Virus record (IMG/VR): IMGVR_UViG_3300042322_000039
Coordinates: 1-22,740 of that record
Source of the DNA: a virus
Reading direction: 5' to 3' (one strand)
DNA: 22,740 nt
Below the pieces are notes generated by a model that did not search any database, was not told the origin of the DNA, and saw nothing but the letters and a program-made list of their open reading frames with translations. Below are positions 1-22,740 of the stretch, piece after piece. Within the stretch, counting starts at the first letter, position 1. Every line of letters starts with the position of its first letter. Made by a program: the position numbers and the translations under genes.

Positions 1-1461
1 CGTGTAGGTCGAGAGCGAGAACGCTTCCGACAGGTTGACGGCGTTCTCCTGCGAGAGACGAAGCGCTCCCGAGGTGTACTGACGGAGAGCGAGCGACGAA
101 ACGAATGCGCACTCGTCCTTGTTCACCGAGTCAAGTCCAGCGTCAACGACGATGGGGATACCGGCGATGGATCCACGGAGTCCCGAAACGTTTGCCGAAC
201 CTGCGAAGCCAAGAGCTTCACCAGCGAACGAGATGACCGGGGTTCCATCAAGGGCAAGCAAGTCCTTGAAGGTGGCCTTGTCAACGACGAGGGCATCAAT
301 CTGCACACCGTTAGGCGTGAAGTAGGTTGCCGATGCGTCAGCAAGTGCGCCGACCCATCCGTCGTAGGTTCCAGCTGCAAGGGTGACCTTGTTGGTTGCG
401 ATGACCTGTGCTGCACAGACTGCTTGGTACTTGGTGCGCAGCTGCGTAGCAAGTGCCTTGCCGAGTCCGATTGCCTGACCACGGAGAACCGAGTTCAAGT
501 AGTCAACCGAGGAACGGTCGATAACCTGACGCGACAGTTCGGAGTAGTTTCCGACCGTGATGATGTTTTCGGTGAACGTGTCAAGGTTGAGCTGGTAGTA
601 ACCGAGGTCGTCACCTTCGGCAGCCTGTGTGGCCGTACCGTCGGTGATGCCATCGACAACAGCGAACGTGATTGTCATGCCGGTGGGGGGAGTAACTCCG
701 CGACCGAACACAGAACCGAGAGGGTTGGCTGCGTCAACGAGACGGATGAGGTCAACGTCGATGGGGGTCGTGATTGAGTCAGCGGTCGTTGCGCCAGTGT
801 AAGCGCGGACTGCATTCTCCTCGTTGGCAGCAAGTGCCTGAAGGAAGTGTCCAGCCGAACGGTAGGACGGTGCCGAAGGGGCTTCGACGGTGCCGAGAGT
901 TGAGATTTCACGCTCAACCATTTCAATACGCTCACGAACCTCGGCGAGTTCGGGAGTCAGGTCACGGATTTCATCCATGATTTCTCCTTTTTGTTCAGCC
1001 GATACAGGGATGTCCTGTTCGGGTTCGTCACGCAATTCCGTGACAGTCGCTCCCTCATACCAAGGGAACGAAACTAGTGAGACTTCACGCACGTAGGCAT
1101 CGGTGACGATGCGGTTGCGTTGTTCGTCGGTGGTGGACTTGCGCATGAGGAAGCCAACCGAGAAGCGGTTGATGACACCATCCTCGAGGAGTGCGATGGC
1201 ATCTTTGCCACGAGAGGTCTCGGAGATAGTTGCGCGAATCTCAAAGCCCTCGTCGGTGTGACGGCCTTCGATAATGCGACCAATAGGTTCCGACTTGTCG
1301 TGTTGCCACATAAGTTTGGCTTCGGGGTCAAGCGTGACCGAATCGCGGGCGAACATCTCGCCGTTCTCGAGCGTGCCGTAAGGGACAGCAATCCCAGCCA
1401 CCTCACGCTTGTCTTTGTCAGTGAGACGGAACTCCATCTCACGGGTCTCAAATTGTTCCAT
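1..1461 (-). CDS. HK97-type prohead protease fused to major capsid protein, copy A (3' end cut by window edge)
   Basis: The frame is open from the ATG at 1461 to the window edge, giving 487 codons. It matches copy B at 16869-18383, so about 17 residues are missing. An AGGAG sits 6 bases before the start. The portal stop at 1448 overlaps the start by 14 bp. The N-terminal part resembles HK97-family (U35) prohead proteases: His54 in the WQHDKSEPIGR segment and Ser101 in NRFSVGF are the likely catalytic residues. A charged, probably helical segment follows at about 160-195. From about 205 on the sequence is a HK97-fold capsid protein. A second strong ribosome site lies inside the gene at 976-989. 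The domain assignment is confident; protease catalysis is inferred from motif similarity. Confidence 0.93.
   Translation of the reverse strand, partial: MEQFETREMEFRLTDKDKREVAGIAVPYGTLENGEMFARDSVTLDPEAKLMWQHDKSEPIGRIIEGRHTDEGFEIRATISETSRGKDAIALLEDGVINRFSVGFLMRKSTTDEQRNRIVTDAYVREVSLVSFPWYEGATVTELRDEPEQDIPVSAEQKGEIMDEIRDLTPELAEVRERIEMVEREISTLGTVEAPSAPSYRSAGHFLQALAANEENAVRAYTGATTADSITTPIDVDLIRLVDAANPLGSVFGRGVTPPTGMTITFAVVDGITDGTATQAAEGDDLGYYQLNLDTFTENIITVGNYSELSRQVIDRSSVDYLNSVLRGQAIGLGKALATQLRTKYQAVCAAQVIATNKVTLAAGTYDGWVGALADASATYFTPNGVQIDALVVDKATFKDLLALDGTPVISFAGEALGFAGSANVSGLRGSIAGIPIVVDAGLDSVNKDECAFVSSLALRQYTSGALRLSQENAVNLSEAFSLSTYT
976..989 (-). promoter_or_regulatory. Internal Shine-Dalgarno and in-frame ATG inside protease-capsid gene, copy A
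   Basis: AAGGAG at 984-989 lies 5 bases before an in-frame ATG at 976-978 (codon 162 of the fusion). Initiation here would give a capsid protein that keeps the helical scaffold-like segment but lacks the protease. The site is identical in copy B. Function is inferred. Confidence 0.6.
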
Positions 1462-2581
1462 TGGGAACTCCTAACAGTGGCGCAAGCTTTTCGTCCTCAC
1501 GAACTTCGTCGATGGTCTTGAAGCCTGCTGCGATTGCAATCTGGTGGGCTTGGTAACGGGTAAGTGTGTCATTGCGGAGCAAAGCATCAATGTTCATGCG
1601 TGCGTCAGTGCCACGAGGCAACAGTGCGCTCATGGCCTGCTCAATCTCGACGTAGTAAGCAGAGAGGGAGTACCGGGTGAATGCAATCTGTTCCTGCTCA
1701 ACGTTTGAATAGGTCATGCTCGAGCCTGCTTCGGCGAGCATCATGTTGGCAGGAATGCCGAGTATGCGACAGACCTGTGAAGTGTTCCACTGCTGAACCT
1801 CAACAAACATTGCGTCACGAGGGTTCAGGAACAAGTTCTGAATCGACAATTCGGCAGGTGACACCACACTGCCACCAGTCTGCGCGTTGCGCAACGACTC
1901 GGCAATATCAATCAAAGTGTCAGGCGAGACAGGAACCTTCGGCGAAACAACCTGCGCAGCCATCCCCGAATCCGAGAACCACTTTGACGCAAAGTCGCGT
2001 GTGTCCTTTGAGTTGCGCAATTCCGCTTGACAAGCCTGAATCGGGCCCAGACCGTAAAGGTTGCCGGGCATGCTAAGCATCTTGAGGTGCTGAATCTCAT
2101 TAGGTTGGTATTCGGTAGTACCCCGATAGGTGTACCCGGTGAGTTCTCCGCTATCCGTTGACTCAATCAATATGTCGAATGGGTTCAGCACTTCAAGCTT
2201 GACCGTCTCGCCACGGCCATTGCGCGAGATACGCCAATAAGCGTTTCCGGCCACAGCCATCGAGTTGACAGTACGCGCCATAAACTCGGCACGGGTTATC
2301 TTGTCATCGGGTTGCTTTACCCACAACGGTGTCGACTCAAGCCGAACATCGTCACGGTAAAGGTGAACACCAATCTGCTTGATTGCGTTCGACAGAATTG
2401 AAACTCCACGGTAGACGGCAGCAATGCTGACCGCTTCGACAGTGTTGACCCCAGCCGATGCGGAGCGTGGCGGTGGAACAATAGACGAACGGGTTGAGAG
2501 TTCAGTGCCAAAATCGGACGCGACGGAACGCACCGTCTCGATTGCGCGAAGGGGGTTGAGGAAGTCTAAAAGGCTTGCCAT
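1448..2581 (-). CDS. Portal protein, copy A (377 aa)
   Basis: The portal is the dodecameric ring at the capsid vertex through which DNA is packaged and to which the connector binds. The assignment rests on the overall sequence (N-terminal SLLDFLNPLRA and PPRSASAG, then AVYRGVSILSNAIKQ, the NPFDILIES region, and a helical C-terminus), which resembles HK97-type phage portals. The position between large terminase and protease-capsid supports it. I chose the ATG at 2581. In-frame upstream codons exist to 2608, but they lie in a stretch that looks like a promoter (2582-2645). No Shine-Dalgarno precedes 2581, so a leaderless message is possible. Copy B differs at only five residues, all within about the first 50. 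The stop overlaps the capsid start. Confidence 0.93.
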   Translation of the reverse strand: MASLLDFLNPLRAIETVRSVASDFGTELSTRSSIVPPPRSASAGVNTVEAVSIAAVYRGVSILSNAIKQIGVHLYRDDVRLESTPLWVKQPDDKITRAEFMARTVNSMAVAGNAYWRISRNGRGETVKLEVLNPFDILIESTDSGELTGYTYRGTTEYQPNEIQHLKMLSMPGNLYGLGPIQACQAELRNSKDTRDFASKWFSDSGMAAQVVSPKVPVSPDTLIDIAESLRNAQTGGSVVSPAELSIQNLFLNPRDAMFVEVQQWNTSQVCRILGIPANMMLAEAGSSMTYSNVEQEQIAFTRYSLSAYYVEIEQAMSALLPRGTDARMNIDALLRNDTLTRYQAHQIAIAAGFKTIDEVREDEKLAPLLGVPNGTI

Positions 2582-2645
2582 ACGCAATAATCGTACCATA
2601 CGACGCAAGAATCTTGCGTGGCGTGTCTAAATTGTACGTTTTATG
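2582..2645 (-). promoter_or_regulatory. Conserved promoter-like spacer with palindrome upstream of portal, copy A
   Basis: This 64-bp non-coding spacer has one mismatch to copy B, although the flanking genes are diverged. On the minus strand an extended -10-like TGGTACGAT lies at 2590-2598, with eight bases between TACGAT and the portal ATG. A perfect 8+1+8 palindrome, ACGCAAGAATCTTGCGT, occupies 2603-2619, where a -35 region or operator would sit. I see no good -35 hexamer. Promoter and operator function are inferred. Confidence 0.45.
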
Positions 2646-2726
2646 TTATTGGCACGAATCGCACTGAAGATAATCCATTGGGTCAACGGGTGGGATGGGG
2701 TAACCATCAAGAGTCTGCTTATCCAT
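2646..2726 (-). CDS. 26-aa CxxC microprotein, copy A
   Basis: A short reading frame lies between large terminase and portal, ending in a CDSC (CxxC) motif after a PIPPVDP segment. Of the codons that differ from copy B, six changes are synonymous (Asp, Leu, Pro, Asp, Leu and Ser codons) and one is Tyr to Phe. That pattern indicates translation. No clear Shine-Dalgarno precedes the ATG; the frame begins 20 bases after the terminase stop, so translational coupling is likely. I do not recognise a family. A single CxxC could help bind metal in a dimer or complex, but no function can be assigned. Confidence 0.6.
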   Translation of the reverse strand: MDKQTLDGYPIPPVDPMDYLQCDSCQ

Positions 2727-2745
2727 AGAGGACTACATTATCAGG

Positions 2746-4170
2746 TCAGACCATAATCGTGCGAGTTGCCACAGCCTTCAGCGTTTCGGCACCATGACAA
2801 GCCAACAATGTTGCCATCACCGCGTCAATCTCCACGCTCGAGTCACGCCGCGAGATACGGAAGCCGTTGTCCAGCACCTTACGAACGGTGCGCGGAATCT
2901 GAACCGACAGCAACGGGTCCGGGGCATGTTTCAGTGTTTCATTCTTGAGACGGGCATGGAACGACGAACAAGCGCCGTTGATTTGAGAGTTCAGAATAAG
3001 TTCTGAATTGATACCACGGCGAATGAGTTCGTTGTGTAAATCCTTGAGCATGAGACCGTCCATGATGATAGCCCGGGGAGAGTGCTGGTGAAGTTGCTGT
3101 GCAACAAGCATCAACTTCTCCAGAGTAGGCTTGACAATCGATGCGACCAGTTCGGTGTGAATGACACCGTCAACCATTACAGCTGCGGCCACAGTTGCGA
3201 ATTCCCAGCCAGGGGAACGGTCAATACCGAACACAACCTGACCCGTCGGCAACGTGTCATCAATGCCACGCTCATTCTTGAGCCACAACGAGAACGGAAT
3301 GAACACATCCTTGGCGGTATTGACGAAACGGTTCAGCCGGTAACGGATGATGTCGTTGTCAGGTTCCGAGCGTGCATCCGACAGAACAAGTTTCGGGTCA
3401 ATGCGACCATCCTGCAACGCTGGTGACGCTTCCATCAACAGCGCCATAAACTCGTCATCATCGTCAGGCACAATGGCTTCTGACGCTTCCCATATCCATG
3501 CACCGAAACGGTCAAGGTCCCCGGCAATCGCTTTGTCAGCCATTCCGTAGAGTCGGGTCAATAGTTCGCTGTTCTCGTCCCCCGCTGTGGTTATGCCCAC
3601 GAGTATCGAGTTCGGGCGGGCTCCGAGCCCCGTTTGGAGTGCTGACCAGCTCGAGTCATCGACAAGGTGAACCTCGTCAATAATGCCAACCGAGATGGGA
3701 ATACCCTGCAACGCGGAAGCCTTTGACGCTTTGATTTCATAACGGCTACCCTCGTTAGTTCTAATCCCTCGAGTCTCCGTCAACTTCGTCATCATCGACT
3801 GGAGCGTCGGGTTCGCGTTGATAATGCGCAACACCCGGTCATGAACAAGACGGGCAAGGTCAACAGTGCTGGCAATACCGATGTTGTACTGGTTCGACTC
3901 ACGCAACAACGCCCAGATACCAATGGCCGTCACCAGTTCCGTCTTGCCATTCTGTCGCGGAACCGAGACCAGACAAGAACGCCACCGTAATTCGCCTGAC
4001 GGTAACAGTTCGGTAACGCGGCGCAGCAACTCACGTTGCCAAGAATCGAACTGAAACGGCTTCCCGTTCGCCACACTCCAGGCATACTCGAACGCTGGAA
4101 GATAACGGTCAATATCCGCAGCGAACTCGGGAGTCAGCGGTGGGGTATGACGTGCCGGACTAAAGACCAC
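2746..4170 (-). CDS. Terminase large subunit, copy A (474 aa)
   Basis: This is the ATP-driven packaging motor and nuclease. The Walker A-like VPRQNGKT is at residues 70-77 and the Walker B VGIIDE at 161-166, followed by a motif III-like GITTAGDE at about 192-199. The C-terminal nuclease domain shows FGIDRS with Asp317, a second acidic region near Asp371 (IIMDG) and Asp449 (EIDAVMA). It starts with GTG at 4170 and overlaps the small-terminase stop by 11 bp. Compared with copy B, the first about 280 residues carry about 43 substitutions by my count, while the last about 190 carry about five. The length is usual for a phage terminase. Confidence 0.96.
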   Translation of the reverse strand: MVFSPARHTPPLTPEFAADIDRYLPAFEYAWSVANGKPFQFDSWQRELLRRVTELLPSGELRWRSCLVSVPRQNGKTELVTAIGIWALLRESNQYNIGIASTVDLARLVHDRVLRIINANPTLQSMMTKLTETRGIRTNEGSRYEIKASKASALQGIPISVGIIDEVHLVDDSSWSALQTGLGARPNSILVGITTAGDENSELLTRLYGMADKAIAGDLDRFGAWIWEASEAIVPDDDDEFMALLMEASPALQDGRIDPKLVLSDARSEPDNDIIRYRLNRFVNTAKDVFIPFSLWLKNERGIDDTLPTGQVVFGIDRSPGWEFATVAAAVMVDGVIHTELVASIVKPTLEKLMLVAQQLHQHSPRAIIMDGLMLKDLHNELIRRGINSELILNSQINGACSSFHARLKNETLKHAPDPLLSVQIPRTVRKVLDNGFRISRRDSSVEIDAVMATLLACHGAETLKAVATRTIMV

Positions 4171-4390
4171 GGCGCAACAGTTCAGCCAACGGGTCCATAT
4201 CGACAGTCGCTCCTGGCCGTTCTTTCAAAAGTGAACGGTGAAGCACACCGAACTGCGCAATCAAGGCCGCAGTAACTTCCCGGTCAAGTTCGATGGCCAC
4301 GGCTTGCAACGCAACCACCGATGGTGCGTGCGCTGCAGTCAACCACGTCTCGTTTGCAATGAATTGCTGGACGGCGATTTCAAAGTTCAA
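4160..4390 (-). CDS. Probable terminase small subunit, copy A (76 aa, TTG start)
   Basis: A short, helix-rich protein directly upstream of the large terminase, with PSVVALQAVAIELDREV and a DPLAELLRR ending. This resembles small terminase-like proteins of actinophages, which bind packaging-site DNA and load the motor. I chose TTG at 4390 because AGGAG precedes it by 7 bases in both copies. A GTG at 4462 would extend the frame by 24 codons, but through the hairpin at 4457-4478, and four of the four base changes between copies there would alter residues, as expected of non-coding DNA. The family assignment rests on position and composition more than on a diagnostic motif. Confidence 0.72.
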   Translation of the reverse strand: MNFEIAVQQFIANETWLTAAHAPSVVALQAVAIELDREVTAALIAQFGVLHRSLLKERPGATVDMDPLAELLRRGL

Positions 4391-4514
4391 GGCTCTGCTC
4401 CTAAATGTTGGAAAGTTCGGGGATAAAAAGGAAGGGTAGGCGGCGGATTGGGGCAACCCCACTCAAAAAAGAGTGGGGATGTTTTACCGGTGGCCGCCCG
4501 TCACCGTTTGTTTG
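4391..4514. other. Non-coding packaging-region spacer between HNH and small terminase, copy A (possible cos region)
   Basis: A 124-bp gap in an otherwise gapless genome. Bases 4424-4478 are identical in copy B, whereas 4479-4514 are strongly diverged with a small indel. HNH nucleases beside terminases are known in HK97-like phages to take part in cos cleavage, so a packaging site here is plausible. I cannot see cohesive ends. Confidence 0.35.
4450..4478. terminator. Hairpin between HNH and small terminase, copy A
   Basis: A perfect 8-bp stem (CCCCACTC at 4457-4464, GAGTGGGG at 4471-4478) encloses a six-base A/T loop. GGGG at 4450-4453 can pair instead with CCCC at 4457-4460, an alternative fold. 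The minus strand after the stem reads TTGCCCC, so there is no U-tract. It may be a terminator or processing site between early and late genes, or part of the packaging site. Confidence 0.45.
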
Positions 4515-4778
4515 TTATGGGATGACCACCCCCCACCCCGGGTTAGTCCAGTTGAGTCGGGTGTTGATGCGGTCGGCTTTGGCACTGTTGCATCGACGGC
4601 AGCAGGCGATGAGGTTGCCGGGTTCGTTACCCCCACCTAGGGAGTGGGGTGTTATGTGGTCGACGGTGTCGGCATCGCCACCGCAGTATGCGCAGGTGTG
4701 TGCGTCACGTTCGAGGATGAATGCGCGTGTGCGTTTCCATTCGGCGGTGCGTAGGTCGGCTCTGTCTTTGGCTGGCAT
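4515..4778 (-). CDS. HNH endonuclease, copy A (87 aa)
   Basis: A small HNH nuclease with the zinc-binding knuckles CAYC and CRRC flanking a DHITPHSLGG segment and a conserved NL, the layout of the HNH fold. In HK97-like phages, HNH proteins encoded next to the terminase are required with TerL for specific genome cleavage during packaging; that role is inferred here from the neighbours. The ATG at 4778 overlaps the metallophosphoesterase stop (TAATG). An in-frame start at 4871 exists but lies entirely inside the upstream gene. Copy B differs at only a few positions, none of them in the zinc ligands. Confidence 0.92.
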   Translation of the reverse strand: MPAKDRADLRTAEWKRTRAFILERDAHTCAYCGGDADTVDHITPHSLGGGNEPGNLIACCRRCNSAKADRINTRLNWTNPGWGVVIP

Positions 4779-5953
4779 TAGATTACCTCGAGTCCTGTGA
4801 ACTCTCCGCCGGGTCGCGTTAGCATCAGGATTGCTCCGCGTTTGGCGACGTCTCCTGTTTTGTGTTTCCACCAGGTTGATTCTGATTCCATGGTTGGTGT
4901 GCAGAGAACAAGTCGGTCGCGTTTGGAACGTATGCTGAACTCATGTTCATGGCCGTGGACGAGGATATGACCAGCCTGCGCAGCGTGCAGATTGAATGAT
5001 TGACCCGCCCACCAATCCATCGACTTACCCCGCGCCCATTGGTGGCCATGTACCAAGACCATGACGGTACCTTGGAAGTCAATGACCAGATGGTCCTCGT
5101 CAATGGCCGGGACGTGTATCGTGACATGTTTGTATCTTTCGGGGTTTAGTGCAAGAGCTTCTGCAATGGCGATGGCTGCTTCTGTAGCGTGACCATCATC
5201 AGCTCTTGTTTCTTGGAATCGTTGGAGTTGGTCGTGGTTGCCGTTGACCACTGACAGCCACACTTGCGGTGCGGTGATAAATGCTTCGATGTGAGCGAGT
5301 AGCATTCGACGCAGAATCCGGGTTTGTTCAGTGACGGTAAGTCGTGAACGCCACATGTTGCGTCCGTTCTGTGATTGGTTGCCTTCGATACAGTCACCAA
5401 CCAGTGCGATATGAACCGGCGGTCGTCCAGCATTACGCCACCGGGTAACAGCAGTCTCCAGGGACTGGTTCCATCGTCGGATAATGCCAGCAGTCCCATC
5501 GCCGTCGAGGTCCTTACCGATTTGGGTGTCCCCGATAAGGAGATGAAGTACCACATTGGTGCTGGTCGTTGAGGGTTTAGCCGGTTTCTTTTTTCCAACC
5601 AGAGCAACAAGCTCGTCAATGCTCGATCGGTTAGCGTCCGGCTCAATGCGGAAACGGTAGAACCATGTCGGGCGCGTAACAGCGTCCGCACCAGCTGTGC
5701 TTCGTGTCCACCCGTGAGTTTGGTGACGGGCTTCAACCAGTACAGCGCGGTAGCCGGTGGGGATGACTCCGCCTTGAGCCAGGATGAATTGTTTGATTGC
5801 TTCATCGCCTTTTACCTGTTCTGTTGTTGTTGCTTCGATTGTTGATGATGATGGGTCGTGTGGATCGAACGATTGTGAGAATGTCCAGTCACCTGAACGT
5901 CCGGCCTTGATGGGCTTTGGTGTTGGTGTCTGGAGCAGTTCGCCGAGATCCAT
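4778..5953 (-). CDS. Calcineurin-like metallophosphoesterase, copy A (391 aa)
   Basis: The metallophosphoesterase core runs from about residue 135 to 345. Motifs in order: GDTQ (141-144), GDCIEG (186-191), NGNHD (237-241), HGH (302-304) and HGHEH (333-337). They supply the dimetal ligands. The first motif has Gln where many family members have His. The N-terminal 130 residues contain a low-complexity TSTTS/KKKPAK linker and an unrecognised small domain. Actinophages commonly encode such proteins; substrate is unknown, possibly DNA ends or nucleotides. The gene starts 3 bp after the HTH gene's stop with no clear Shine-Dalgarno, implying coupled translation. The part upstream of 5210 is identical to the piece in copy B. 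Confidence 0.9.
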   Translation of the reverse strand: MDLGELLQTPTPKPIKAGRSGDWTFSQSFDPHDPSSSTIEATTTEQVKGDEAIKQFILAQGGVIPTGYRAVLVEARHQTHGWTRSTAGADAVTRPTWFYRFRIEPDANRSSIDELVALVGKKKPAKPSTTSTNVVLHLLIGDTQIGKDLDGDGTAGIIRRWNQSLETAVTRWRNAGRPPVHIALVGDCIEGNQSQNGRNMWRSRLTVTEQTRILRRMLLAHIEAFITAPQVWLSVVNGNHDQLQRFQETRADDGHATEAAIAIAEALALNPERYKHVTIHVPAIDEDHLVIDFQGTVMVLVHGHQWARGKSMDWWAGQSFNLHAAQAGHILVHGHEHEFSIRSKRDRLVLCTPTMESESTWWKHKTGDVAKRGAILMLTRPGGEFTGLEVI

Positions 5954-7030: not shown

Positions 7031-7614
7031 TCGAGTTTCCCTTCTCGGTATTGTTTCGAGCACTGTTCACACTTTAGCGCAGATGTTGACGGATAATGCA
7101 AGCATCGTGGCGGAATGTATTTTGGCGTGTCGTTGTTTTCTGTTTCGGAATTATCGGCCGCCCGAGCGAAGCTCTGGGGCGTGTCGATTATGTTATCTAT
7201 AATTGCCCCCGATCCGCCGTCGGGCTCCGCCCCGGCGGTCGGGGCTTTCTTTATATGTTCGGGTGACCTGGGTGTCACCCCTTGGGTGACCTGGGTGTCA
7301 CCCCCCCTGACACCGGTGTCACCCCCCCTGACATACACGTCACCCCTATTGAATGACGCATTTACGACGTAATAACGATTGGTTCCGCGATGGCCGTCTT
7401 GCCGTTTGGTGACAATTTCGTTCGCTTCCTCAAGGTCACGCAGCACCCGTTGAGCATGGCGAACGGATATTCCTGCCATGTCAGCAATGCGTGCCATTGA
7501 GGGCCATGATCCGTATTCGTTGCCTTCGTGGTCGGCAAGGATAATGAGGACCAGCTTGTGTAAGCCGTAGACGTTCTTGTTGTGGATTGCGGCGCGAGTT
7601 ATCTTGAATGACAT
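7027..7614 (-). CDS. Winged-helix replication initiator-like protein (195 aa)
   Basis: The N-terminal about 95 residues form a winged helix-turn-helix of the replication-initiator/DnaD-N type: a domain-opening KLVLIILADHEGNEYGSWPS, recognition helix region MAGISVRHAQRVLRDLEE, and wing TKRQDGHRGTNRYYV. The middle is a low-complexity RGGDT-rich linker encoded by four iteron-like repeats. The C-terminus has HYPSTSALKCEQCSK, with a CxxC knuckle. I chose ATG 7614 because AGGGG precedes it; the longer frame to 7650 would run through a hairpin. An initiator whose gene contains its own binding repeats is the arrangement known for phage lambda O. Initiator function is inferred. Confidence 0.8.
   Translation of the reverse strand: MSFKITRAAIHNKNVYGLHKLVLIILADHEGNEYGSWPSMARIADMAGISVRHAQRVLRDLEEANEIVTKRQDGHRGTNRYYVVNASFNRGDVYVRGGDTGVRGGDTQVTQGVTPRSPEHIKKAPTAGAEPDGGSGAIIDNIIDTPQSFARAADNSETENNDTPKYIPPRCLHYPSTSALKCEQCSKQYREGKLE
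7205..7253 (+). terminator. GC-rich hairpin with T-rich tail on the plus strand
   Basis: The left arm at 7205-7219 pairs with CGGCGGTCGGGGC at 7233-7245 apart from two bulged bases. TTTCTTTAT follows on the plus strand, so it looks like an intrinsic terminator for plus-strand transcription, although no plus-strand gene is supported. It may instead be origin structure. Confidence 0.4.
7261..7346. repeat. Four iteron-like repeats (19-23 bp)
   Basis: Units at 7261-7283, 7284-7306, 7307-7327 and 7328-7346. The first two share GGGTGACCTGGGTGTCACCC exactly. Each unit carries a (G)TGAC...GTCACC near-palindrome, perfect in the first two and decayed in the last two. They encode the repeated RGGDT segment of the replication protein. 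Confidence 0.8.
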
Positions 7615-7630
7615 GAATCCCCTAATGAAG

Positions 7631-16868: not shown

Positions 16869-17900
16869 TTACGGGGTCTGGTCGATGGGGATGATGAACG
16901 CAGGGTACTCGCCAGCGGTGGCCGTGTAGGTCGAGAGCGAGAACGCTTCCGACAGGTTGACGGCGTTTTCCTGCGAGAGACGAAGCGCTCCCGAGGTGTA
17001 CTGACGGAGAGCGAGCGACGAAACGAATGCGCACTCGTCCTTGTTCACCGAGTCAAGTCCAGCGTCAACGACGATGGGGATGCCGGCGATGGATCCACGG
17101 AGACCGGAGACGTTTGCCGAACCTGCGAAGCCGAGGGCTTCACCAGCGAACGAGATGACCGGGGTTCCGTCAAGAGCAAGCAAGTCCTTGAACGTGGCCT
17201 TGTCAACGACGAGGGCATCAATCTGCACACCGTTGGGGGTGAAGTAGGTTGCCGATGCGTCAGCAAGTGCGCCAACCCAGCCGTCGTATGTTCCAGCTGC
17301 AAGGGTGACCTTGTTGGTTGCGATGACTTGTGCTGCACAAACAGCCTGGTACTTGGTGCGGAGCTGGGTGGCGAGAGCCTTGCCGAGTCCGATTGCCTGA
17401 CCGCGGAGAACCGAGTTCAAGTAGTCAACCGATGAACGGTCGATAACCTGACGCGACAGTTCGGAGTAGTTTCCGACCGTGATGATGTTCTCGGTGAACG
17501 TGTCCAGGTTGAGCTGGTAGTACCCGAGGTCGTCACCTTCGGCAGCCTGTGTGGCCGTACCGTCAGTGATGCCGTCGACAACAGCGAACGTGATCGTCAT
17601 GCCGGTGGGGGGAGTAACGCCGCGACCGAACACCGAACCGAGAGGGTTGGCTGCTTCGACGAGACGGATGAGGTCTACGTCAACGGGGGTCGTGATTGAG
17701 TCAGCGGTCGTTGCGCCAGTGTAAGCGCGGACTGCGTTCTCTTCGTTGGCAGCGAGTGCCTGGAGGAAGTGTCCAGCCGAACGGTAGGACGGTGCCGAAG
17801 GGGTTTCGACGGTGCCGAGAGTTGAGATTTCACGCTCAACCATTTCAATGCGCTCACGAACCTCGGCGAGTTCGGGAGTCAGGTCACGGATTTCATCCAT
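16869..17900 (-). CDS. Nested capsid protein from internal start, copy B (343 aa, predicted)
   Basis: Initiation at codon 162 of the fusion would produce a protein of 343 residues: the scaffold-like helical segment plus the whole capsid domain. AAGGAG (17906-17911) lies 5 bases before this ATG, as good a site as that of the full gene. It would supply the several hundred capsid subunits without matching protease. A nested in-frame product is known for lambda C/Nu3, with a different domain partition. Translation from this site is predicted, not shown. Confidence 0.55.
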   Translation of the reverse strand: MDEIRDLTPELAEVRERIEMVEREISTLGTVETPSAPSYRSAGHFLQALAANEENAVRAYTGATTADSITTPVDVDLIRLVEAANPLGSVFGRGVTPPTGMTITFAVVDGITDGTATQAAEGDDLGYYQLNLDTFTENIITVGNYSELSRQVIDRSSVDYLNSVLRGQAIGLGKALATQLRTKYQAVCAAQVIATNKVTLAAGTYDGWVGALADASATYFTPNGVQIDALVVDKATFKDLLALDGTPVISFAGEALGFAGSANVSGLRGSIAGIPIVVDAGLDSVNKDECAFVSSLALRQYTSGALRLSQENAVNLSEAFSLSTYTATAGEYPAFIIPIDQTP

Positions 17901-18383
17901 GATTTCTCCTTTTTGTTCAGCCGATACAGGGATGTCCTGTTCGGGTTCGTCACGCAATTCCGTGACAGTCGCTCCCTCATACCAAGGGAACGAAACTAGT
18001 GAGACTTCACGCACATAGGCATCGGTCACAATGCGGTTGCGTTCTTCGTCTGTGGTGGACTTGCGCATGAGGAAACCAACCGAGAAGCGGTTGATGACAC
18101 CATCCTCGAGAAGTGCAATGGCATCCTTGCCACGCGCCGTTTCGGATATGGTTGCGCGAATCTCAAAGCCTTCGTCAGTGTGACGGCCTTCGATAATGCG
18201 ACCAATCGGTTCTGACTTGTCGTGTTGCCACATCAGTTTGGCTTCGGGGTCGAGCGTTACGGAGTCCCGAGCGAACATCTCGCCATTCTCCAGTGTGCCG
18301 TAAGGGACAGCGATGCCAGCGACTTCGCGCTTGTCCTTGTCAGTGAGACGGAACTCCATCTCACGGGTCTCAAATTGTTCCAT
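16869..18383 (-). CDS. HK97-type prohead protease fused to major capsid protein, copy B (504 aa)
   Basis: Complete version of the fusion partly seen at 1-1461. Protease part: residues 1 to about 155, with His54 (WQHDKSEPIGR) and Ser101 (NRFSVGF) at the likely catalytic positions. Coiled, charged delta/scaffold-like segment: about 160-195 (DLTPELAEVRERIEMVEREI). HK97-fold capsid: about 205-504, including the SELSRQVIDRSSVDYLNSVLRG spine region. An AGGAG precedes ATG 18383. In typical HK97-like phages protease and capsid are separate genes; fusion imposes equal amounts unless the internal start at 17900 is used. Confidence 0.95.
   Translation of the reverse strand: MEQFETREMEFRLTDKDKREVAGIAVPYGTLENGEMFARDSVTLDPEAKLMWQHDKSEPIGRIIEGRHTDEGFEIRATISETARGKDAIALLEDGVINRFSVGFLMRKSTTDEERNRIVTDAYVREVSLVSFPWYEGATVTELRDEPEQDIPVSAEQKGEIMDEIRDLTPELAEVRERIEMVEREISTLGTVETPSAPSYRSAGHFLQALAANEENAVRAYTGATTADSITTPVDVDLIRLVEAANPLGSVFGRGVTPPTGMTITFAVVDGITDGTATQAAEGDDLGYYQLNLDTFTENIITVGNYSELSRQVIDRSSVDYLNSVLRGQAIGLGKALATQLRTKYQAVCAAQVIATNKVTLAAGTYDGWVGALADASATYFTPNGVQIDALVVDKATFKDLLALDGTPVISFAGEALGFAGSANVSGLRGSIAGIPIVVDAGLDSVNKDECAFVSSLALRQYTSGALRLSQENAVNLSEAFSLSTYTATAGEYPAFIIPIDQTP
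17898..17911 (-). promoter_or_regulatory. Internal Shine-Dalgarno and in-frame ATG, copy B
   Basis: AAGGAG at 17906-17911, spacer of five bases, ATG at 17898-17900. The surroundings are identical to 976-989 in copy A. Confidence 0.6.
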
Positions 18384-19503
18384 TGGGAACTCCTAACAGT
18401 GGCGCGAGCTTCTCGTCCTCACGGACTTCATCGATTGTTTTGAAGCCTGCTGCGATTGCGATTTGGTGGGCTTGGTATCGGGTAAGTGTGTCGTTGCGGA
18501 GAAGTGCGTCGATGTTCATGCGTGCGTCGGTTCCACGTGGGAGCAGAGCGCTCATGGCTTGCTCAATCTCGACGTAGTAGGCAGACAGCGAGTACCGGGT
18601 GAACGCGATCTGTTCCTGCTCGACGTTCGAGTACGTCATGCTCGAGCCGGCTTCTGCCAGCATCATGTTCGCGGGAATCCCTAGGATGCGACAGACTTGC
18701 GAAGTGTTCCACTGCTGGACCTCGACGAACATCGCGTCACGGGGGTTCAGGAACAAGTTCTGAATTGACAACTCGGCAGGTGACACCACACTGCCACCAG
18801 TCTGCGCGTTACGCAACGACTCAGCAATATCAATCAACGTGTCAGGCGAGACAGGAACCTTCGGCGAAACAACCTGCGCAGCCATACCCGAATCCGAGAA
18901 CCACTTCGACGCAAAATCGCGGGTATCCTTCGAGTTTCGCAATTCCGCCTGGCACGCCTGGATAGGACCAAGGCCGTAAAGGTTGCCGGGCATGCTAAGC
19001 ATCTTGAGGTGCTGAATCTCATTAGGTTGGTATTCAGTAGTACCCCGATAGGTGTACCCGGTGAGTTCTCCGCTATCCGTCGACTCAATCAGAATGTCGA
19101 ATGGGTTCAGCACTTCAAGTTTCACAGTCTCACCGCGGCCATTGCGCGAAATACGCCAGTAAGCGTTTCCAGCCACAGCCATCGAATTGACAGTACGCGC
19201 CATAAACTCGGCACGGGTAATCTTGTCATCCGGTTGCTTTACCCACAAGGGTGTCGACTCAAGCCGAACATCGTCACGGTAAAGGTGCACACCAATCTGC
19301 TTGATTGCGTTCGACAGAATAGATACGCCACGGTAGACGGCGGCAATGCTCACAGCTTCGAGAGTGTTCACACCAGCCGATGCGGAACGGGGCGGTGGCA
19401 CGATACTTGATCGCGTTGTCAGTTCGGTGCTGAATTCGGACGCGACTGAACGCACCGTCTCGATTGCTCGGAACGGGTTCAGGAAGTCCAGAAGGCTTGC
19501 CAT
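18370..19503 (-). CDS. Portal protein, copy B (377 aa)
   Basis: Second allele of the portal at 1448-2581. The protein differs at five positions (Leu/Phe, Asp/Glu, Gly/Ser, Ser/Thr, Val/Leu), all near the N-terminus, although the nucleotide sequence differs at many third positions. The ATG at 19503 again lacks a Shine-Dalgarno and follows the conserved promoter-like spacer. The stop overlaps the capsid start by 14 bp as in copy A. Confidence 0.93.
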   Translation of the reverse strand: MASLLDFLNPFRAIETVRSVASEFSTELTTRSSIVPPPRSASAGVNTLEAVSIAAVYRGVSILSNAIKQIGVHLYRDDVRLESTPLWVKQPDDKITRAEFMARTVNSMAVAGNAYWRISRNGRGETVKLEVLNPFDILIESTDSGELTGYTYRGTTEYQPNEIQHLKMLSMPGNLYGLGPIQACQAELRNSKDTRDFASKWFSDSGMAAQVVSPKVPVSPDTLIDIAESLRNAQTGGSVVSPAELSIQNLFLNPRDAMFVEVQQWNTSQVCRILGIPANMMLAEAGSSMTYSNVEQEQIAFTRYSLSAYYVEIEQAMSALLPRGTDARMNIDALLRNDTLTRYQAHQIAIAAGFKTIDEVREDEKLAPLLGVPNGTI

Positions 19504-19567
19504 ACGCAATAATCGTACCATACGACGCAAGAATCTTGCGTAGCGTGTCTAAATTGTACGTTTTATG
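19504..19567 (-). promoter_or_regulatory. Conserved promoter-like spacer with palindrome upstream of portal, copy B
   Basis: Same elements as 2582-2645: extended -10-like TGGTACGAT at 19512-19520 and the ACGCAAGA/TCTTGCGT palindrome at 19525-19541. One base differs from copy A, just beyond the palindrome. Confidence 0.45.
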
Positions 19568-19648
19568 TTATTGGCAGGAATCGCACTGCAAGAAGTCCAT
19601 CGGGTCAACGGGTGGGATGGGGTAACCATCGAGAGTCTGCTTGTCCAT
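19568..19648 (-). CDS. 26-aa CxxC microprotein, copy B
   Basis: Same length and stop as copy A. The only residue difference is Phe for Tyr before the Leu-Gln-Cys-Asp-Ser-Cys-Gln end; the other six base-changed codons are synonymous. It sits 20 bases after the terminase stop. Confidence 0.6.
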   Translation of the reverse strand: MDKQTLDGYPIPPVDPMDFLQCDSCQ

Positions 19649-19667
19649 AGAGGACTACATTATCAGG

Positions 19668-21092
19668 TCAGACCATGATCGTGCGAGTGGCCACAGCCTT
19701 CAGCGTTTCCGCACCATGACAAGCCAAGAGTGTGGCCATCACCGCGTCTATCTCCACGCTCGAGTCACGCCGCGAAATACGGAACCCGTTGTCTAGCACC
19801 TTGCGAACGGTTCGCGGAATCTGAACAGACAGCAACGGGTCCGGTGCGTGCTTGAGCGTTTCGTTCTTGAGCCGGGCATGGAACGAGGAGCAAGCACCGT
19901 TTATCTGCGAGTTCTGAATAAGTTCTGAATTGATACCACGACGGACAAGCTCGGTGTGTAGATCCTTGAGCATCAGACCGTCCATGATGATAGCCCGGGG
20001 AGAGTGCTGGTGGAGTTGTTGTGCGACGAGCATCAACTTTTCCAGAGTCGGCTTCACAATGGATGCGACCAGTTCGGTGTGGATGACACCGTCAACCATT
20101 ACAGCTGCGGCCACAGTTGCGAACTCCCAGCCAGGGGAACGGTCAATGCCAAAGACAACCTGACCGGTCGGCATGACATCGTCGATGCCACGCTCGTTCT
20201 TGAGCCACAACGAGAACGGGATAAACACATCCTTTGCGGTGTTCACGAATCGGTTCAGCCGGTACCGGATAACATCCAGGTCGGGTTCTGATCGCGCATC
20301 AGACAGAACAAGCTTCGGGTCAATGCGACCGTCTTGAAGTGCAGGGTTGGCTTCGGTAAGTAACGCCATAAACTCGTCATCGTCATCGGGGACAATGGCT
20401 TCGGATGCTTCCCATATCCACGCACCAAAGCCTTCGAGTTCTCCAGCGATTGCCTTTTCGGCCATGCCATACAGTCGAGTCAAAAGTTCGGAGTTCTCGT
20501 CCCCTGCTGTTGTGATGCCACAGAGCATTGAGTCGGGTCGACTGCCGAGCCCGGTCTGAATGGCCGACCAGCTTGCATCATCAACCAAGTGCACTTCATC
20601 AATGATTGCAATTGAAACGGGGATACCTTGAAGGCTGTTTGCTTTAGACGTTTTGATTTCATATCGCGTTCCCTCGTTAGTTCGGATACCACGAGTCTCG
20701 GTAATCTTTGACATCATCGACGAGAACGTCGGGTTGGCATTGATAATGCGCAACACTCGGTCGTGGACAAGTCGAGCCTGCTCAACGGTCGACGCAATAC
20801 CGATGTTGTATTGATTTGGTTTCCGCATCAGAGCGAGCAGTCCGATTGCTGTTGCTAATTCTGTTTTGCCGGATTGTCTTGGGACGCTGATTATGCAACC
20901 TCTCCACCTCAAGGTCCCGTCTGGTAACAGTTCGGTAACGCGGCGCAGCAGCTCACGTTGCCACGGGTCGAACCGAAACGGCTTCCCGTTTGCAACAGTC
21001 CAGGCATACTCGAACGCTGGCAGGTAACGGTCAATGTCGGCCGCAAAGTCTGGGGTCAGTGGCGGTGTGTGACGTGCAGGGCTAAATACCAC
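19668..21092 (-). CDS. Terminase large subunit, copy B (474 aa)
   Basis: Second allele of the packaging motor, same length as copy A. Walker A reads VPRQSGKT here (Ser for Asn), Walker B AIIDE. The nuclease residues Asp317, Asp371 and Asp449 are retained. GTG start at 21092 overlaps the small terminase. The ATPase half differs from copy A far more than the nuclease half at protein level. Confidence 0.96.
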   Translation of the reverse strand: MVFSPARHTPPLTPDFAADIDRYLPAFEYAWTVANGKPFRFDPWQRELLRRVTELLPDGTLRWRGCIISVPRQSGKTELATAIGLLALMRKPNQYNIGIASTVEQARLVHDRVLRIINANPTFSSMMSKITETRGIRTNEGTRYEIKTSKANSLQGIPVSIAIIDEVHLVDDASWSAIQTGLGSRPDSMLCGITTAGDENSELLTRLYGMAEKAIAGELEGFGAWIWEASEAIVPDDDDEFMALLTEANPALQDGRIDPKLVLSDARSEPDLDVIRYRLNRFVNTAKDVFIPFSLWLKNERGIDDVMPTGQVVFGIDRSPGWEFATVAAAVMVDGVIHTELVASIVKPTLEKLMLVAQQLHQHSPRAIIMDGLMLKDLHTELVRRGINSELIQNSQINGACSSFHARLKNETLKHAPDPLLSVQIPRTVRKVLDNGFRISRRDSSVEIDAVMATLLACHGAETLKAVATRTIMV

Positions 21093-21312
21093 GACGCAAC
21101 AGTTCAGCCAACGGGTCCATATCGGCTTGCACGCTTGGCCGTTCTTTCAGCAACGACCGGTGGAGCACACCGAATTGCGCAATCAAGGCGGCAGTCACTT
21201 CCCGGTCAAGTTCGATGGCCACGGCTTGCAATGCAACAACCGATGGTGCGTGCGCTGCAGTCAACCACGTTTCGTTTGCAATGAATTGCTGGACGGCGTT
21301 TTCGAAGTTCAA
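21082..21312 (-). CDS. Probable terminase small subunit, copy B (76 aa, TTG start)
   Basis: Second allele of 4160-4390. It keeps the AGGAG and TTG start, the ALQAVAIELDREV helix and the DPLAELLRR end; changes cluster just before DPLAEL (SVQAD for GATVD) and at the first residues. The GTG at 21384 is again inside the hairpin. Confidence 0.72.
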   Translation of the reverse strand: MNFENAVQQFIANETWLTAAHAPSVVALQAVAIELDREVTAALIAQFGVLHRSLLKERPSVQADMDPLAELLRRGI

Positions 21313-21439
21313 GGCTTTGCTCCTAAATGTTGAAAAGTTCGGGCGTAAAAAGGAAGGGTAGGCGGCGGATTGGGGCAACCCCACTCAAAAAAGAGTGGGG
21401 ACTTTATGCGAGGGGACAGACCACCCACGATTGTTTATG
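21313..21439. other. Non-coding packaging-region spacer, copy B (possible cos region)
   Basis: Counterpart of 4391-4514. The portion 21346-21400 is identical to copy A, while 21401-21439 is replaced by largely unrelated bases and is 3 bp longer. The hairpin is included. Confidence 0.35.
21372..21400. terminator. Hairpin between HNH and small terminase, copy B
   Basis: Identical to the copy A hairpin: CCCCACTC at 21379-21386 and GAGTGGGG at 21393-21400 with an A6 loop on the plus strand, and the alternative GGGGCAACCCC fold at 21372-21382. Confidence 0.45.
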
Positions 21440-21703
21440 TTATGGGATGACTACCCCCCACCTGGGGTTCGTCCAGTTGAGGCGTGTGTTGATGCGGTCT
21501 GCTTTGGCAGAGTTGCATCGTCGGCAGCAGGCGATGAGGTTGCCTGGTTCGTTACCGCCACCGAGGGAGTGGGGGATGATGTGATCTACAGTGTCTGCCA
21601 CCCCCCCGCAATATGCGCACGTTTCAGCATCTCTGGCGAGGATGAATGCGCGTGTGCGTTTCCATTCGGTGGTGCGTAGGTCGGCTCTGTCTTTGGCTGG
21701 CAT
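21440..21703 (-). CDS. HNH endonuclease, copy B (87 aa)
   Basis: Second allele of 4515-4778, same length. The CAYC and CRRC knuckles and DHIIPHSLGG are intact. The start at 21703 overlaps the metallophosphoesterase stop (TAATG). Changes such as Glu/Ala and Asp/Val avoid the zinc and active-site positions. Confidence 0.92.
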   Translation of the reverse strand: MPAKDRADLRTTEWKRTRAFILARDAETCAYCGGVADTVDHIIPHSLGGGNEPGNLIACCRRCNSAKADRINTRLNWTNPRWGVVIP

Positions 21704-22740
21704 TAGATGACCTCGAGTCCTGTGAACTCTCCGCCGGGTCGCGTTATCATCAGGATTGCTCCGCGTTTGGCAACGTCACCTGTTTTGTGTTTCCACCATG
21801 TTGATTCTGATTCCATGGTTGGGGTGCAGAGAACAAGTCGGTCGCGTTTGGATCGTATGCTGAACTCATGTTCATGGCCGTGAACGAGGATATGACCAGC
21901 CTGCGCAGCGTGCAGATTGAATGATTGACCCGCCCACCAATCCATCGACTTACCCCGCGCCCATTGATGGCCATGTACCAGGACCATGACGGTACCGTTG
22001 AAGTCAATGACCAGATGATCCGAGTCCACTTCCGGGACGTGTATCTTGACATGTTTGTACCTTTCGGGGTTTACTGCAAGAGCATCTGCAACCGCGATGG
22101 CCGCTTCTGTAGCGTGACCATCATCAGCTCTTGTCTCTTGGAATCGTTGGAGTTGGTCGTGGTTGCCGTTGACCACTGACAGCCACACTTGCGGTGCGGT
22201 GATAAATGCTTCGATGTGAGCGAGTAGCATTCGACGCAGAATCCGGGTTTGTTCAGTGACGGTAAGTCGTGAACGCCACATGTTGCGTCCGTTCTGTGAT
22301 TGGTTGCCTTCGATACAGTCACCAACCAGTGCGATATGAACCGGCGGTCGTCCAGCATTACGCCACCGGGTAACAGCAGTCTCCAGGGACTGGTTCCATC
22401 GTCGGATAATGCCAGCAGTCCCATCGCCGTCGAGGTCCTTACCGATTTGGGTGTCCCCGATAAGGAGATGAAGTACCACATTGGTGCTGGTCGTTGAGGG
22501 TTTAGCCGGTTTCTTTTTTCCAACCAGAGCAACAAGCTCGTCAATGCTCGATCGGTTAGCGTCCGGCTCAATGCGGAAACGGTAGAACCATGTCGGGCGC
22601 GTAACAGCGTCCGCACCAGCTGTGCTTCGTGTCCACCCGTGAGTTTGGTGACGGGCTTCAACCAGTACAGCGCGGTAGCCGGTGGGGATGACTCCGCCTT
22701 GAGCCAGGATGAATTGTTTGATTGCTTCATCGCCTTTTAC
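21703..22740 (-). CDS. Calcineurin-like metallophosphoesterase, copy B (5' end cut by window edge)
   Basis: Reading frame enters from the window edge at the codon equal to residue 47 of copy A and runs to the stop at 21703. All metal-binding motifs are present (GDTQ, GDCIEG, NGNHD, HGH, HGHEH). The part from 22136 to the edge is base-identical to copy A; only the C-terminal part carries substitutions (for example EVDSDH for AIDEDH). Confidence 0.9.
   Translation of the reverse strand, partial: VKGDEAIKQFILAQGGVIPTGYRAVLVEARHQTHGWTRSTAGADAVTRPTWFYRFRIEPDANRSSIDELVALVGKKKPAKPSTTSTNVVLHLLIGDTQIGKDLDGDGTAGIIRRWNQSLETAVTRWRNAGRPPVHIALVGDCIEGNQSQNGRNMWRSRLTVTEQTRILRRMLLAHIEAFITAPQVWLSVVNGNHDQLQRFQETRADDGHATEAAIAVADALAVNPERYKHVKIHVPEVDSDHLVIDFNGTVMVLVHGHQWARGKSMDWWAGQSFNLHAAQAGHILVHGHEHEFSIRSKRDRLVLCTPTMESESTWWKHKTGDVAKRGAILMITRPGGEFTGLEVI

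Follow-up and report, generated by a model that had tools for sequence, protein, structure and literature searches.

Class I ribonucleotide reductases (RNRs) carry at the C-terminus of NrdA a pair of cysteines, through which thioredoxin, glutaredoxin or NrdH passes electrons to the active site and which is stated to be present in the NrdA of all class I enzymes (PMC6187632); of the 2022 class I sequences in another count, 1737 have the CXXC motif (PMC9531940). A redox-tail part that forms a polypeptide of its own and serves a catalytic subunit is represented by the NrdJa/NrdJb system of Pseudomonas aeruginosa, a split class II RNR in which NrdJb supplies the thiol/disulfide exchange as a separate chain (PMC4520616). 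A rewired electron route to RNR has been described for the NrdB-glutaredoxin fusion of Facklamia ignava and for phage RNR operons with glutaredoxin (PMC6187632). In these systems, however, a reductase domain has been added and the tail has not been detached. The class I NrdA of Aeromonas phage Aeh1 also occurs in separate pieces, but it is reportedly split by a homing endonuclease within the catalytic body, and the break is not at the tail. Searches of the literature, covering open-licence papers, turned up neither a class I tail described as a free peptide nor the motif string of the peptide considered here.

This peptide resembles the class I NrdA/NrdE tail in having the CxxC at its extreme C-terminus and in the pattern ...VDP...xLQC[DE]SCQ, which ends as the fused actinobacterial NrdA does; unlike that tail, it is encoded by a separate gene, found also on phages and plasmids. 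NrdJa/NrdJb differs from it in several respects: that system is class II and cobalamin-dependent, whereas the one considered here is class I, with an ATP-cone-containing NrdA and NrdB; the separate class II piece is a cysteine-rich domain of 150–220 aa (PMC5704485), as opposed to a peptide of 20–43 aa; and the accessible parts of the sources describe no copies of it on mobile elements.

The window, i.e. the whole stretch of 22,740 nucleotides that was analyzed, probably combines sequence from two strains of a small tailed phage with a genome of ~17 kb, the assembly having run past the genome start. Its first 5.8 kb are repeated 16.9 kb downstream, at ~50–100% identity per 100 bases, and the two copies of the microprotein gene are therefore best read not as a duplication but as alleles of two strains that a single contig brings together. 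Positions 1–5818 and 16923–22740 are diverged versions of one stretch of ~5.8 kb, in which the identity falls to about 50–80% within the terminase gene. The relevant features are:

1448..2590, minus strand: portal gene, downstream of copy 1 (phrog_12, E 2.6e-60)
2646..2726, minus strand: microprotein copy 1, 26 aa, MDKQTLDGYPIPPVDPMDYLQCDSCQ, with the ATG at 2726 and the TAA ending at 2646
2652..2663, minus strand: CxxC dithiol of copy 1, Cys22-Asp-Ser-Cys25, both Cys invariant in 74/74 rows
2735..2740, minus strand: TAATGT, a -10 element of the TANNNT type 8 nt ahead of the ATG of copy 1, putative leaderless promoter
2746..4170, minus strand: large terminase gene, upstream of copy 1 (phrog_9, E 1.9e-60)
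19568..19648, minus strand: microprotein copy 2, 26 aa, allele of the second strain with Y19F, read as an ORF
19657..19662, minus strand: the same putative -10 element ahead of copy 2, assigned from the cross-lineage spacing

The CxxC of copy 1 lies one residue upstream of the C-terminal Gln, and the terminase stop codon is found 19 nt ahead of the ATG. The microprotein is separated from the portal start by an inverted repeat, ACGCAAGAATCTTGCGT (window 2603–2620), and similar words precede the portal gene in some relatives (L012–L014). No RNR gene was identified among the 16 window proteins scanned, and the Pfam, PHROGs and NCBIfam profiles gave no significant match to the three peptides searched.

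The sequence-only reading had proposed a conserved, translated CxxC microprotein, offering no function for it, and our analysis supports this proposal. The comparison of the two alleles, with six synonymous codon changes and one Tyr/Phe replacement (9 nt in 26 codons), was reproduced, and none of 50,000 random placements of the 9 changes altered one residue or fewer, in agreement with the argument that such a pattern reflects translation. Since rows selected by a motif cannot reveal its conservation, all conservation counts were taken from relatives gathered by the similarity of the terminase and not of the peptide (74 contigs or loci, 50–100% identity, 72 of them with a readable portal gene). 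The frame ending CxSC-Q, for which a search of related terminase-portal gaps had been suggested, is present in all 72 readable relatives; together with both window copies they exhibit an ORF of 22–26 aa ending DPMDxxQC[DE]SCQ (H for Q once), the lengths being approximate, as the starts were chosen by a rule (nearest suitable ATG). Within the last 14 residues P, D, P, M, D, C, S, C and Q are invariant in the 74 rows (72 relatives and 2 window copies). The dN/dS, named in the same reading as a possible source of refutation, turned out to be low: over 53 distinct cores in the correct frame pS is 0.86, pN is 0.11 and pN/pS is 0.13, while the two shifted frames of the same cores give ratios of 3.4 and 1.3. 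Some of the gaps contain additional elements: in L039 and L042 an ORF of 112 aa, by eye resembling a HAD-type phosphatase (DIDGTLL), is inserted after the microprotein, and in L050 ARAGORN reports a doubtful tmRNA-like gene (7140–7626), which overlaps the end of the terminase and the gap. No tRNA genes were found in 23 loci of the window lineage.

The start of the gene in the window phage has no Shine-Dalgarno sequence, and a sigma-70 consensus scan of positions 2500–3000 found no promoter. Among the distinct upstream regions of the window lineage, a TANNNT word occurs 8 or 9 nt ahead of the start in 44 of 52, and at spacings of 3–7 or 10–14 nt in none of the 52. Leaderless transcripts are common in Actinobacteria, and this spacing would fit a leaderless transcript made from a -10 element of its own. 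The same spacing was not found in 48 starts of other phages, so the putative promoter belongs to the window lineage. A leaderless mode is also consistent with most viral starts being without a Shine-Dalgarno-like word (92 of 116 viral ATG starts among the matches listed), unlike the chromosomal ones, of which 81 of 106 possess it (again among the matches listed).

The position between terminase and portal, at which the sequence-only reading had noted the microprotein, proved to be an incidental location. The motif is present in at least 119 stretches of viral contigs, and 78 of 109 further viral loci (L075–L183, including additional stretches from contigs counted before) contain no homolog of the window terminase or portal in the available stretch; these 78 stretches form 23 DNA-level groups. 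A phage head or packaging gene would be expected to keep a fixed place among head genes across phages, and the motif does not. In Pontimonas phage phiPsal1 and Clavibacter phage CMP1 the motif-bearing ORF follows the holin gene and in Clavibacter phage CN1A a metallophosphatase gene, unannotated in each case, and in Pseudanabaena phage Pan2 it is annotated as a hypothetical protein; thus, of the 4 named phages found, 3 carry the microprotein without annotation. The Pan2 peptide (L189, record positions 21249–21323) is a diverged tail-like sequence, MDDFDTIDGFACPNDPADLVSCESCQ, and the named host of this phage is a cyanobacterium. The motif was also identified in 19 plasmid records, from Clavibacter (15), Leifsonia (3) and Gryllotalpicola (1); all the carriers are genera of Microbacteriaceae, to which we take Gryllotalpicola to belong, and one of the Leifsonia copies reads ...GYQVPVDPMDQLQCDGCQ.

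The scan of bacterial and archaeal genomes revealed the motif in at least 120 stretches; both this total and the viral one are lower bounds from samples that are not random. Nearly all of the 80 genome stretches listed bear the label Microbacteriaceae or a broader actinobacterial name, the exceptions among the listed matches being two MAGs labeled Acidobacteria and one Cellulomonadaceae. Clustering of 120 genome stretches by their neighbors suggested linkage to nrdAB for 45 and placed 43 upstream of FAS1-dehydratase/MaoC/MurB genes, with 32 unplaced, and a genome may possess up to five copies. In the first type, the gene for a class I NrdA (PF02867, E 4e-164, with an ATP-cone) is followed by the peptide and then by NrdB (PF00268, E 2.5e-75), and the peptide is a separate ORF in all 29 nrdA-linked host loci, as it is in phage. 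The copy upstream of FAS1-dehydratase/MaoC/MurB, away from nrdAB, is a second host copy (e.g. L210, L212 and L251) and often has a strong Shine-Dalgarno sequence. In Schumannella soli (L191) an ORF of ~160 residues ends in the tail motif (...EPMVDPMDLLQCDSCQ) and may represent the fusion of a tail to some other protein.

Analysis of the NrdA sequences themselves revealed that the split enzymes have no cysteine after the barrel (29 of 29), whereas 37 of the 38 other NrdA rows have 2–3, the exception being the truncated L373. The split NrdAs retain the SNCFV and SVCNLASINL motifs of the catalytic core, which we take to hold the active-site cysteines. Their nearest homologs elsewhere in Actinobacteria, at 69–75% identity, exhibit a fused tail, ...ACPVDPQERLQCESCQ or in general form ...DPQExxxC[DE]xCQ, in all 15 untruncated cases, and 12 remoter homologs (39–41% identity) end in CEACQ. 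Two of the 30 loci in this homolog set are ended by contig edges: in L375 the edge falls inside the motif and ACPVDPQERVQCE can still be read, and L373 stops ahead of the tail. A profile HMM built solely from 116 distinct viral peptides matched the last residues of the fused actinobacterial NrdAs of the nearer group in 15 rows (E 5e-8 to 7e-4), with a 16th row, cut by a contig edge, at E 0.12, and it matched none of the 29 split NrdAs. In a tree obtained by a quick method, in which the placement of long rows is unsure, the split rows adjoin the fused ones with 2 label changes, which leaves room for a single origin of the split NrdAs. Compared with the class I tail, the peptide has the CxxC pair near the chain end (74/74 rows) and homology to the tail, and differs in not being part of the NrdA polypeptide; a tailless catalytic subunit with a linked gene that supplies the cysteines, as expected of a split RNR, was found both in the hosts and in one phage record, G500. 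These sequence comparisons argue strongly that the peptide is a free-standing homolog of the redox tail found at the C-terminus of class Ia NrdA. An AlphaFold model of an NrdA extended by readthrough into the peptide, based on a shallow alignment of 22 rows, reached a pLDDT of 43 and was discarded as uninformative.

G500 (95 kb; L390 and L109) is the only one of the 40 peptide-bearing phage records searched in which an RNR was found. Its gene order is peptide, tailless nrdA, nrdB; the genes around them match families of phage tail and lysis proteins, and the PF03354 terminase was not found in this record. In the quick tree the G500 NrdA has a long branch and clusters with the split NrdAs of the hosts. 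This protein, of 1120 aa and adjoining the detached tail gene, contains an intein-like insertion (PF14890, below the curated cut-off).

The co-occurrence of the two partners was analyzed in 100 Microbacteriaceae genomes. The peptide is present in all 45 genomes that possess the tailless NrdA, 44 of them by a strict pattern and the 45th, G032, by a looser one that captured the variant ...DPMELLQCDSCQ; the strict pattern has no match in the 55 genomes without this NrdA. All 44 pattern-positive genomes thus possess this NrdA (Fisher p 9e-28, a descriptive value that ignores kinship). The strict pattern misses four variants adjacent to nrdA (G088, G081, G058 and G055), and the looser one was run on 4 genomes, all outside the set of 55. 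In that set, 53 genomes have more distant RNR matches only and two have none, and the class Ib NrdE tails read there are fused, with CVSCML in 9 of 9. Outside the family, 149 genomes drawn from the order yielded a match in the center genome G006 itself and in no other. Two genomes have copies only away from nrdA: in G069, nrdA and nrdB are spaced by 58 nt that hold no peptide, a single copy being found elsewhere, and in G032 the sole detected copy and nrdA lie about 33 kb apart. Both genomes would require action in trans, provided that the function proposed below is correct.

In our opinion it is highly probable that the peptide is a detached redox arm of class Ia RNR that acts in trans, with the phage contributing an arm of its own, expressed from a leaderless promoter. 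The homology to fused tails, the tailless NrdA, the co-occurrence, the purifying selection and the copies apart from nrdA are shown by the sequences, whereas the function is inferred. According to this model, nrdA of one branch of Microbacteriaceae would have lost its CxxC tail, which would persist as a separate gene of 20–43 aa, often between nrdA and nrdB, usually with a further chromosomal copy elsewhere and with more copies on the phages and plasmids of these bacteria. The peptide may diffuse or dock in trans on NrdA, be reduced by thioredoxin, glutaredoxin or NrdH, and in turn reduce the disulfide left in the active site of NrdA after every catalytic cycle; by making its own arm, the phage, in which no RNR gene was identified, could sustain or tune the host RNR for the synthesis of phage DNA. 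A class II tail is able to reduce a neighboring subunit, but when a truncated class II NrdJd was combined with its cysteine-rich domain, expressed on its own, no activity was obtained with TCEP (both in PMC5704485), and function in trans is therefore not automatic. The model is also weakened because the host already holds up to five copies, because a late-gene neighborhood is unexpected for an early dNTP function, because the phage start has no Shine-Dalgarno sequence, and because the named host of Pan2 is a cyanobacterium.

Could the phage copy instead be a decoy or inhibitor, which binds NrdA or its reductant and blocks or diverts the reduction in the host? Phages often target host metabolism, and a small mimic of the tail, with no catalytic domain, could compete with the host arm. 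However, both cysteines and the motif are under strong purifying selection in the terminase-selected phage set, the host copies (selected by the motif) likewise keep them, and the phage with its own RNR retains the peptide beside nrdA; we regard this explanation as unlikely. A much smaller probability is assigned to the possibility that the host tail is joined to NrdA by frameshifting or readthrough and acts in cis, the detached copies being secondary. The peptide ORF does start at or near the nrdA stop codon in the nrdA-linked host loci, but the relative frame varies, with 27 of 29 loci out of frame and 2 in frame, L209 has AGGAGG ahead of an ATG of its own that follows a TAG, two genomes have distant copies only, and a Shine-Dalgarno-like word precedes most of the listed host copies. 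It is equally improbable that the peptide has nothing to do with RNR, resembles the tail by chance and serves generally as a dithiol or in binding zinc: CxxC motifs are common in metal binding and redox chemistry, and the sole Pfam match is an insignificant one to a zinc finger (E 0.14–0.27), but the likeness extends to VDP and LQC[DE]SCQ with the same last residue, and the presence of the peptide tracks the tailless NrdA across the 100 genomes. A leader peptide or RNA element governing the portal gene, which the location upstream of portal in the window lineage might suggest, has next to no likelihood, given an RNA fold not above chance in the microprotein region (z -1.05), a terminase-portal gap that ranges from 95 to 458 nt among relatives, the lack of a fixed downstream gene, with the peptide following holin or other genes elsewhere, and selection that acts on the residues.

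An orphan tail of the fused style (CPVDPQE...) has 0 matches in viral contigs. With less assurance than for the arm itself, we favor the broader view that class I RNR can employ a diffusible micropeptide arm, encoded by a gene of ~26 residues, and that mobile elements, namely the phages and plasmids of Microbacteriaceae, bring their own arm to take over or boost the synthesis of DNA precursors in the host; the choice of arm may set the activity of RNR or its preference for a reductant. If true, an essential textbook enzyme would work with its redox arm unattached, contrary to the universal statement in PMC6187632, and whether the arm acts in cis or in trans, a question of long standing, would become directly testable in a natural system. 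A function would be given to a gene that Pfam, PHROGs and NCBIfam do not recognize, and this gene would be among the smallest auxiliary metabolic genes proposed. It would also indicate that even genes of very small size may be genuine metabolic genes of phages.
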